A stretch of DNA of 41,059 nucleotides, from assembly GCA_030649165.1 (NCBI GenBank), contig JAUSGG010000011.1, positions 1 through 41,059 of the forward strand. Direction: 5' to 3'. The first letter of the stretch is position 1, and each line of letters starts with the position of its first letter. The translations under genes and the position numbers were made by a program. Below are positions 3,143-6,330 of the stretch, in pieces. The notes below the pieces were generated by a model. It was given only the letters and a program-made list of their open reading frames with translations, had not been told where the DNA came from and searched no databases. Origin of the DNA: Armatimonadota bacterium. Its GTDB lineage: Bacteria; Armatimonadota; UBA5829; JAUSEB01.

Positions 3143-4681
3143 TTAGTTGTTGGTTGACGGTTGACAGATCATTCCGACACTGTAAAGCCTGCATCCATAA
3201 CCCAGGGATACGCGCAGCGCCGCGACTGCGCTCGCCAAAGGCCTGTCCCACGCTACTTTGCGGTACACTCCTTCAACCGTCTCGCCGGTCAATCGCCCCA
3301 GGGCGAGAGGCGTTCGGGACCGATCGAGAGCGGAAACAGCGATGTCGTCGCCGTCCGCGTTTATATAAATGTCTCCAAAATGGGCTTGTACGGTCACGCT
3401 CCCCGGTCCTTCGGCATACGCATACCGGTCCCGCGGCAGAGTTGCGAGACCCAGGTAAGCAGGAGCGAACATCGATCCGCGCCGCTCAGGGCTTACCATA
3501 TAAGGCGGCGGCCAGGAGTTGTAAATGTTCGGGCAGCCGATGTAGTAGATGTAGACTTCGTCGCCGACCTCCTGCATTGCCGACGTGGTCGTCACCAGCA
3601 GGTTTTCGTCCCAAAAGCCTTTCGGCCCTGTGGCTACGAGCGGAGCGCGCGGATGGACGCGGCGGAATTTGCGGCCATCCTCGCTCACAGCCAGCTTCAG
3701 ATCGCCGTGGATGGGATTGCGGCTGAAGTTGTCGGACTCGAAGAGCATCAGGAATTGTGCGCTGCTTTTTGGCGGCCCTCCAGGTAAGGTACCTGGAGGG
3801 ATAGATTTGGCTCCGATCGGCGGCCCTCCAGGTAAGATACCTGGAGGGATAGGAGAGATACCTGGAGGGATAGGAGAGATACCTGGAGGGATAGGACACT
3901 GCCCGTCCGATTTGCGCACTGAGGCAAAATGTAGTTCTTCGTCGATTCCTTGTTCCGGAGCGAGCGACACCGGGTCCGCGGCGCCGGCCAATTGGTCTAT
4001 AGCGGTTCCGTGCGCCAAGCCGATATGACGGACGCCATCCCGGCCATCGTAGGCGCGCTTGCGTATCAGTTGCGAATAGGCCCTTATCCTGAATTGCGGG
4101 TCCGGCTCCTCCGCGTCGTACACTATCTGGCTTATATCCTGGAATGAGGCGCGATCGAACGGGATACCTTCGTACACCGTGCGCTCGCGGGTCCAGTGGA
4201 TTCCGTCCGGCGAATACGCCAGCCTCTTACGCAGGTATGACATCCCATCGCCGATCTCGGTCCAGAGGGAGGCGAACCGCTTGCTCTCCGCGGCGGCGGG
4301 GTCGGGGTTCTCGAAAACGCAGCTCAGCAAGGAATAGCCCCAATCGACTTCGATCCGGTTCGTATCCGCGCCGAGGAACTCGACCTGGCCCAAATCCGGC
4401 TTTACCCAATGGATCCCGTCCTCGCTTTCGGCATAGCCCGGCTTCCAGAAACGATCCGGCGACTGGATAACGTCGAGGCCCGAGTACCAACATCGGAACT
4501 TCTTCTCCTCCGGGCTGTACAGGACGGTGGCGGGCCAGCTTATCTGCAGGCTGTCCCACTGATGGGGCTCACCAGGCAGCATCACCGGGTTTTCGGGATG
4601 TTTGACGGCCGGGTTCAGGGCGAAGGTGACACCTTCGTGCCGCGGCGCGGACTGTTCATCGAGTATCAGGTGGGTTCGCAA
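3143..4681 (-). CDS. Beta-propeller (GH32/43/130-like) protein with in-frame repeat insertion
   Basis: The 512-residue protein carries repeated blade-like motifs, for example KFRCWYSGLD, YAESEDGIHWVKPDLG, LAYSPDGIHWTRERTVYEG and LKLAVSEDGRKFRRV. These are typical of five-bladed glycosidase propellers (GH32/GH43/GH130-like). No signal peptide is seen. I chose the TTG at 4681 because TAGGAG lies 6 nt upstream and the previous gene stops 9 bp away, which suggests an operon with the secreted protein at 4691-5236. The middle of the protein (about residues 262-303) is interrupted by a Pro/Gly-rich stretch built from IPPGISP units, encoded by a palindromic 21-bp repeat. The flanking propeller sequence reads on in frame. 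Enzymatic activity is not established; catalytic acids cannot be assigned with confidence. Confidence 0.7.
   Translation of the reverse strand: MRTHLILDEQSAPRHEGVTFALNPAVKHPENPVMLPGEPHQWDSLQISWPATVLYSPEEKKFRCWYSGLDVIQSPDRFWKPGYAESEDGIHWVKPDLGQVEFLGADTNRIEVDWGYSLLSCVFENPDPAAAESKRFASLWTEIGDGMSYLRKRLAYSPDGIHWTRERTVYEGIPFDRASFQDISQIVYDAEEPDPQFRIRAYSQLIRKRAYDGRDGVRHIGLAHGTAIDQLAGAADPVSLAPEQGIDEELHFASVRKSDGQCPIPPGISPIPPGISPIPPGILPGGPPIGAKSIPPGTLPGGPPKSSAQFLMLFESDNFSRNPIHGDLKLAVSEDGRKFRRVHPRAPLVATGPKGFWDENLLVTTTSAMQEVGDEVYIYYIGCPNIYNSWPPPYMVSPERRGSMFAPAYLGLATLPRDRYAYAEGPGSVTVQAHFGDIYINADGDDIAVSALDRSRTPLALGRLTGETVEGVYRKVAWDRPLASAVAALRVSLGYGCRLYSVGMICQPSTNN
3776..3896 (-). repeat. Palindromic and tandem repeat cluster inside a coding gene
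   Basis: Two perfect inverted repeats (CCCTCCAGGTA, 3-nt loop, TACCTGGAGGG) lie at 3776-3800 and 3824-3848. The right arm of the second begins a direct array of 21-bp units (TACCTGGAGGGATAGGAGAGA) at 3838-3858, 3859-3879 and a partial unit to 3896. Because 21 bp is seven codons, the host reading frame stays open and gains SPIPPGI heptapeptides. The unit resembles mobile palindromes that insert in frame into genes. Confidence 0.9.
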
Positions 4682-5377: not shown

Positions 5378-5417
5378 CACCCTCACCCTAACCCTCTCCC
5401 TCAAGGGAGAGGGGATT
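5378..5417. repeat. Dispersed CCCTCTCCCT palindrome
   Basis: The arms CCCTCTCCCT (5392-5401) and AGGGAGAGGG (5404-5413) are separated by CA and preceded by CACCCTCACCCTAA. The same element recurs at 11664-11684, 11735-11757, about 17691-17714, about 30364-30390 and 30471-30493. The gap 5237-5529 otherwise holds only this element and an AGAACCCTA-type short tandem run near 5486-5515. Confidence 0.85.
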
Positions 5418-5529: not shown

Positions 5530-6147
5530 GTGCCGGGAAGATTCAGAGTGAAGATCGAAGAAGACGATGGCGAGCGCAAGCGCCGGAAGAGCGCGGATGA
5601 GGAATTCCAGCAAACCGCCGAGGAGATAGCCGAACTCGTGTCGGAAGAGACCGGCGCTGAGAAGTGTCTTTCCGAGACCGACGCGGCTCAGTTGCGATCC
5701 GAGATCGAATCGGCCAGGCGGGCTGTCGAGGAAGAGCACAACCGATATATGCGCGCGCTTGCCGACTTCGTCAACTATAAGCGCAGACGCCAGGAGGAAT
5801 GCGAGGCTCAGGGCCAGTTCGCCAGTCAGGAACTGATTCTCAAGCTGCTGCCCGTGATCGACAACTTCGAAAGAGCGCTGCAGGCCGCGCAGGAAAACGA
5901 GAATTTCCAGGCCCTCGCGGATGGGGTGTCGCTCACGCTCAGACAACTGCGGGATTTGCTCGAAAAGGAAGGCGTTACGCCAATAGAGGCGGTCGGACAG
6001 GAATTCGATCCGAACGTCCACGAGGCCGTGATGCGTGTAGAGTCCGACGATTACCCGGACAACACTGTCGTGGAGGAACTGGAAAGAGGCTACATGCAGC
6101 GGTCGCGCGTGCTCCGGCCGTCCAAGGTGAAGGTGGCGACGAGGTAG
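5530..6147 (+). CDS. grpE: GrpE, nucleotide exchange factor of DnaK
   Basis: The 205-residue protein is GrpE, which releases ADP from DnaK in the cytoplasmic Hsp70 cycle. An acidic N-terminal region (to about 45) leads into a long coiled coil containing EEHNRYMRALADFVNYKRRRQEE. The core LLPVIDNFERAL (about residues 107-118) and the C-terminal beta domain with EFDPNVHEAVM and PDNTVVEELERGYM follow. These are signature GrpE segments. The start is GTG, placed a few bases after ATGAGGTAA, which serves as a weak ribosome site. Unusually, neither dnaK, dnaJ nor hrcA is adjacent; the next gene is a membrane protein about 200 bp downstream. No CIRCE-like inverted repeat is visible upstream. Confidence 0.95.
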   Translation: MPGRFRVKIEEDDGERKRRKSADEEFQQTAEEIAELVSEETGAEKCLSETDAAQLRSEIESARRAVEEEHNRYMRALADFVNYKRRRQEECEAQGQFASQELILKLLPVIDNFERALQAAQENENFQALADGVSLTLRQLRDLLEKEGVTPIEAVGQEFDPNVHEAVMRVESDDYPDNTVVEELERGYMQRSRVLRPSKVKVATR

Positions 6148-6182: not shown

Positions 6183-6330
6183 TACGTTTTGCGGGAACTA
6201 GCCGGCGTTGTATCCTACAGTTAGTCTTATTAGACCGTTCCCGCATGATAGAACTTCCATACGTTTTGCGGGAACTGACTTACATGGAATCCCGCAGTTA
6301 GTATTACCAGGCCGTTCCCGCATGATAGAA
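6183..6330. repeat. Two near-tandem 71-bp hairpin repeats
   Basis: Units 6183-6253 and 6260-6330 are each 71 bp. Both begin TACGTTTTGCGGGAACT and end CCGTTCCCGCATGATAGAA, with diverged central bases. Within each, GCGGGAAC near the start pairs with GTTCCCGC near the end, so each unit forms a long stem-loop. The second unit ends 13 bp before the Shine-Dalgarno site of the next gene and would lie in its leader if transcribed. Confidence 0.9.

Follow-up and report, generated by a model that had tools for sequence, protein, structure and literature searches.

The window, by which we mean the whole 41,059-nucleotide stretch of DNA analysed, belongs to a 5.48-Mb, 99% complete Armatimonadota genome (G000). 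It holds a glycosidase-like gene on the minus strand that contains a cluster of short hairpins, here called family A, and further along a pair of longer hairpins, family B. The features are as follows.

3143 to 4681, minus strand: host gene, 512 codons, TTG start, propeller glycosidase-like (GH32/117/130-like by profile)
3752 to 3916, minus strand: 55-codon block between FASV and LMLFESD, 7 codons in the closest homologue (from the alignment)
3776 to 3804, plus strand: family A element, copy 1, perfect hairpin, ATAG tail at 3801-3804
3824 to 3852, plus strand: family A element, copy 2, perfect hairpin, ATAG tail at 3849-3852
3853 to 3873, plus strand: 21-nt half-copy (right arm and ATAG)
3874 to 3894, plus strand: second 21-nt half-copy (right arm and ATAG)
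6191 to 6251, plus strand: family B hairpin, 61 bp, ATAG tail, intergenic
6268 to 6328, plus strand: second family B hairpin, 61 bp, intergenic

At 3776-3800 and again at 3824-3848, the arms CCCTCCAGGTA and TACCTGGAGGG form a perfect 11-bp stem with a 3-nt loop. The entire 3776-3894 stretch is open in the minus-strand 512-codon frame, where it is translated as PIPPGISPIPPGISPIPPGILPGGPPIGAKSIPPGTLPGGPP. The original prediction had described two perfect 11-bp palindromes and 21-bp repeats maintained in frame, and we verified all of these in the sequence. When up to 3 mismatches were allowed, TACCTGGAGGGATAGG matched 5 times in the whole window, 4 of them inside the cluster (0.20 expected), and 5 matches were reached in none of 100 shuffles. 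Two other repeats were seen in the window: a CCCTCACCCTAACCCTCTCCCTCAAGGGAGAGG repeat at 5380-5413, with similar sequence near other loci (for example L031 and L107), and a short tandem GGGTCATA repeat at 1986-2012, at and after the end of an ADP-ribosylglycohydrolase gene.

Pfam and NCBIfam searches of the host protein gave no match. A profile built from 17 sequences (the window protein and 16 of its 19 homologues) matched PDB propellers of the GH32/117/130-like group, the best being 6n1a (2.9e-11). In the closest homologue found (G114, 57% identity), the aligned block comprises 23 residues, compared to 71 in the window protein; the 55-codon block, whose coordinates were worked out by hand from alignment residue numbers, includes the net gain of 48 residues. 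The original prediction of an insertion of about 40 residues was therefore right as to the insertion and slightly low as to its size. The inserted segment was present in 0 of the 19 homologues when these were aligned, so that conservation of the segment as an ordinary feature of distant homologues, the outcome that would have told against the prediction, was not observed. From the alignment, the insert appears to lie between two consecutive strands of one propeller blade. A single-sequence AlphaFold2 run on the window protein yielded a model too poor to use (pLDDT 32, pTM 0.20). A collagen-like loop, which had also been proposed, was rejected because the segment has no G-X-Y period. The effect of the insert on the enzyme is most likely neutral.

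The suspicion that this palindrome recurs elsewhere in the genome was borne out: the 13-mer CCTGGAGGGATAG has 100 exact copies in G000, and its reversed control has 0. A family A 28-mer with at most 3 mismatches gave 153 matches on the two strands (control 0), a figure in which many places are counted on both strands because the element is a palindrome. The element measures about 29 bp and consists of an 11-bp stem, a 3-nt loop and ATAG; on the opposite strand this reads as a CTAT tag 5' of the hairpin. Across 102 relaxed A copies, 914 of 1122 stem cells were Watson-Crick paired, 69 were G-T and 139 were mismatched, and in 6 of these copies one stem pair was changed on both sides, from CG to GC. 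In 65 of 71 A stems, GATA marked the tail of one side or both, as judged from the neighbouring bases, a count biased upwards by the tail-containing patterns with which the A and B stem stretches were fetched. A 19-base A pattern was found in 3 of 121 genomes, namely G000 and two genomes of the same order, G002 and G004. A scan of further genome contigs gave only two isolated matches that look like chance, and the viral contigs scanned gave 0.

Most A copies lie outside genes. By a crude coding score, 52 of 78 A clusters were intergenic, 22 were at an edge, 1 was associated with a frame change and 3 were inside coding frames; this classifier left L056 unflagged, and L030 and L058 fell outside its list because of too many mismatches. 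Nine loci of G000 appear to lie in genes or at gene edges (the window, L011, L019, L030, L041, L045, L054, L056 and L058); they were hand-picked from 75 cluster-spanning open frames, among which are several chance words that do not represent elements. The copies at L011, L019 and L041 are near N-termini, and the true start may be downstream. At L054, the gene encodes an RND transporter in which the ACR_tran domain (49-1082) extends across the A site; at L030, a GH38 enzyme carries the copy within Alpha-mann_mid; and another in-gene copy sits in a sulphite reductase-TusA fusion. A Pfam search of the L019 and L045 genes gave no match. In the small, hand-picked set of 13 in-gene sites made up of these nine loci and four sites of one G002 gene, a Pro/Gly frame (PPG or PGG) was used at 11 and an SLQ frame at 2. 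The RNase HII gene at L041 (1996-3063) apparently contains several repeat families in frame (a PPG repeat, ETPSPCGGGLGRG and RSGNPETN). In several proteins (L041, L045, L058 and L191), a further repeat, TCCTTCGGCAGCG...CTACCGAAGGATCGG, is translated in frame as DPSVAER.

The G002 gene, which encodes a VWA-domain protein (contig C45; L061, L064 and L155), has four A copies, all reading PPG(K/M)IPGG. Three of these correspond to gaps of 30, 30 and 45 bp, all multiples of three, in G017, G014 and G011, whose identities to the G002 gene are 85%, 78% and 70%, respectively; the fourth lies in a poorly alignable protein tail. No long direct repeats were visible at the three gapped sites. A further A copy lies 148 bp from a G002 RAYT gene, which is itself flanked on each side by hairpins of its own. 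The counterpart of this copy in G017 (L198) was considered as an empty site and rejected, as it keeps a 15-nt remnant.

Direct repeats were seen at a minority of A sites. At 8 of 73 A anchors, an upstream direct repeat of at least 11 bp (14-36 bp long) begins again within -1 to +3 nt of the tail; with 12 starts of this kind spread over the following 56 offsets, about 1 would be expected at the tail. An earlier permutation test (63 A sites, score 10) gave 5 against 0.15 expected. Two of the eight sites (L097 and L099) carry the same truncated 114-bp MITE. At six loci (L023, L033, L044, L056, L097 and L099) the layout is X-[variable 5' part + hairpin + ATAG]-X, and a search for a donor of the L023 insert matched elsewhere only the A element itself. 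The window copy has no long direct repeat of the 14-36-bp kind at its tail. A 40-bp repeat at L047 was rejected as an insertion and left out of the counts, since it looks like a 144-bp tandem duplication.

The two family B hairpins of the window stand in tandem between a reading frame at 5530-6147, which we take to be GrpE-like, and the next gene. The family B layout is GCGGGAAC, about 45 nt, GTTCCCGC, two bases and GATAG; the interior varies while the length stays fixed at 61-62 bp. Full copies numbered 122 in G000, 13 in G001 and 1 in G014 among 61 genomes searched. When B stems were judged by the stem alone, 55 of 67 were followed by GATAG, a count that the fetching patterns again bias upwards. 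Direct repeats at the tail were found at 2 of 64 B anchors (about 1 expected), which is no excess.

In the sister genus (G001, contig C311), B hairpins bracket a RAYT gene, two on its upstream side (at 316 and 114 bp) and one 67 bp downstream; the encoded protein scores 78.2 bits, just below the model cut-off of 80. RAYT matches were present in 15 of 28 genomes, many of these without family A. G000 has 10 RAYT-like matches, 2 of them above the cut-off, and such proteins also occur in G002 and G004. In G000, no A copies bracket a RAYT gene, and no hairpin with GATAG was found on either strand near the four Y1_Tnp loci. A different repeat brackets the G000 RAYT gene at C180, where a hairpin related to the TCCTTCGGCAGCG...CTACCGAAGGATCGG repeat lies on both sides.

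Taken together, these results demonstrate that family A is repeated genome-wide, is missing from the homologues of the host gene, lies in frame in several other genes and, in G002, occupies sites that are empty in related genomes. We propose that the family A cluster is probably of REP type, ATAG/CTAT-tagged, moved in trans by a RAYT-like enzyme, and inserted in frame. RAYT-like movement is proposed because the other ATAG-tailed family, B, stands on both sides of a RAYT gene in the sister genus, which suggests RAYT involvement in the movement of A; the RAYT-like proteins of G000, G002 and G004, all of which have A, also favour it. Points against the proposal are that this sister-genus RAYT scores just below the cut-off, that the G000 RAYT genes are not bracketed by A, that RAYTs occur in many relatives without A, that the tag is neither GTAG nor CGTC, and that 139 of the 1122 stem cells are mismatched. 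In this proposal, a RAYT/TnpA-REP-like HUH enzyme would act in trans on single-stranded hairpins, and an A copy would have inserted where a turn joins two strands of a propeller blade. The insert may have been tolerated because the CTAT strand is open in all three frames and, in the frame used, codes for a brief Pro/Gly turn, IPPGxLPGG. Duplications restarting at the tail would then have enlarged the site, with 48 residues added in all. The 14-36-bp direct repeats at 8 of 73 A sites are not accounted for by the REP/RAYT explanation, as plain RAYT action is not known to make long direct repeats.

These repeats have a place in an unlikely reading in which ATAG-tailed hairpins form a mobile class of their own, defined at the hairpin and ATAG end alone: this end would be nicked, any 5' sequence carried along and a 14-36-bp target duplication made, with the stems of A and B, and perhaps others, sharing the tail and the stop-free CTAT strand letting genes tolerate the insert. 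Unlikely, too, is host template switching, in which no dedicated enzyme takes part: replication would stall at a hairpin, and the growing strand would switch to other copies and return, so that the element spreads and is duplicated. Consistent with such switching, tandem half-copies follow the tail in 15 of 74 tailed A copies (one copy set), in the arrangement seen in the window; L027 holds an (X-element)x4 array; and at L040 a 56-bp stretch of the inserted piece, upstream flank included, matches the neighbouring copy some 330 bp away at 96%. However, the breakpoint falls at the tail, after the hairpin and not within it, G002 has bare 30-bp insertions, and family B is linked to a RAYT gene, all of which argue against it. 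The X-[variable 5' part + hairpin + ATAG]-X layout at the six loci would also suit a LINE-like, RNA-templated (target-primed) insertion, with its constant 3' end, variable 5' end and long, variable target duplications. This reading is highly improbable and already largely refuted: a search of the 99% complete genome for a reverse transcriptase (RVT_1, PF00078) gave no match at E <= 0.001, and the search for a donor of the 5' part of L023 found none.

It is very unlikely that family A is debris left by an IS-derived MITE of 114 bp that has inverted TACACTCAGCGTCATAA ends and two A-type hairpins. Although this unit is common to L095-L103, and is truncated at the tail in L097 and L099, the outer MITE sequence is absent from most A copies, and in G002 and G004 A stands by itself; the MITE has more probably acquired two A copies than given rise to A. 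The 114-bp repeat also sits at both ends of contig C152. Identity of A itself with a DDE MITE (IS terminal inverted repeats and a fixed-length duplication) was rejected, given the bare 30-bp insertions in G002 and the 14-36-bp variation of the repeats in G000. An ordinary Pro/Gly loop that lengthened through slippage, without any mobile element, might have been read from the tandem 21-bp units, but it has next to no probability and is ruled out by the genome-wide family: the same hairpin stands at dozens of other places, mostly intergenic, and the segment is missing from the homologues.

The proposed REP-type family A can be set beside described systems. As portrayed in PMC3733652 and PMC8266576, GTAG REPs and REPtrons share with it hairpins of 20-60 bp that have a tetranucleotide next to the stem, high copy number, a mostly intergenic location, an arrangement in pairs and clusters, and some copies in frame. 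Family A fits the definition of a GTAG REP as a 20-40-bp hairpin of high copy that is mostly extragenic, but in place of GTAG it carries CTAT 5' of the hairpin, the complement of its ATAG tail. Like REPtrons, family B here brackets a RAYT gene; for family A, no such bracketing was found in G000. According to PMC6006769, RAYT subclass 2.6 and class 3 are similarly flanked by hairpins without GT[AG]G. PMC8266576 and PMC6006769 state that the tag guides RAYT cleavage and that some RAYT classes have hairpins without GTAG, and the former adds that the mechanism of REP dissemination remains to be elucidated.

The original prediction had likened the element to the mobile palindromes of Rickettsia, and this held in that family A is dispersed, inserted in frame and found at filled and empty sites, although it is not an RPE itself. 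As in RPE/CGTC repeats, palindromes stand in frame in conserved protein genes. However, family A is mostly intergenic, its tail is ATAG, and the CGTC tag, reported for Rickettsia RPEs in PMC3733652, is absent from the bases neighbouring 71 A stems; going by the description in PMC2229807, which covers RPE and YPAL, RPEs measure 105-146 bp against about 29 bp for A. The same paper gives YPAL/RU-2 of Yersinia internal inverted repeats and variable 3-26-bp target duplications, which resemble our observations, but these elements are 168 bp long, and in family A direct repeats are confined to a minority of sites. Because its tag fits neither, we did not file family A under the GTAG or the CGTC families. 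Small dispersed repeats of cyanobacteria, reportedly discussed by Elhai in 2008, are said to be very small mobile repeats.

PMC3733652 describes REPs of the GTAG and CGTC types inside genes, where clusters of them encode 43-82 residues. A search of open-licence papers found no ATAG/CTAT-tagged REP family. In-frame REPs are thus already known, and what is new here is a tag other than GTAG or CGTC. With these findings, the range of REP-type palindromes that invade protein genes in frame grows by one more lineage and one more tag. Furthermore, the filled and empty sites of the G002 gene and its relatives at 70-85% identity could show how such elements insert.
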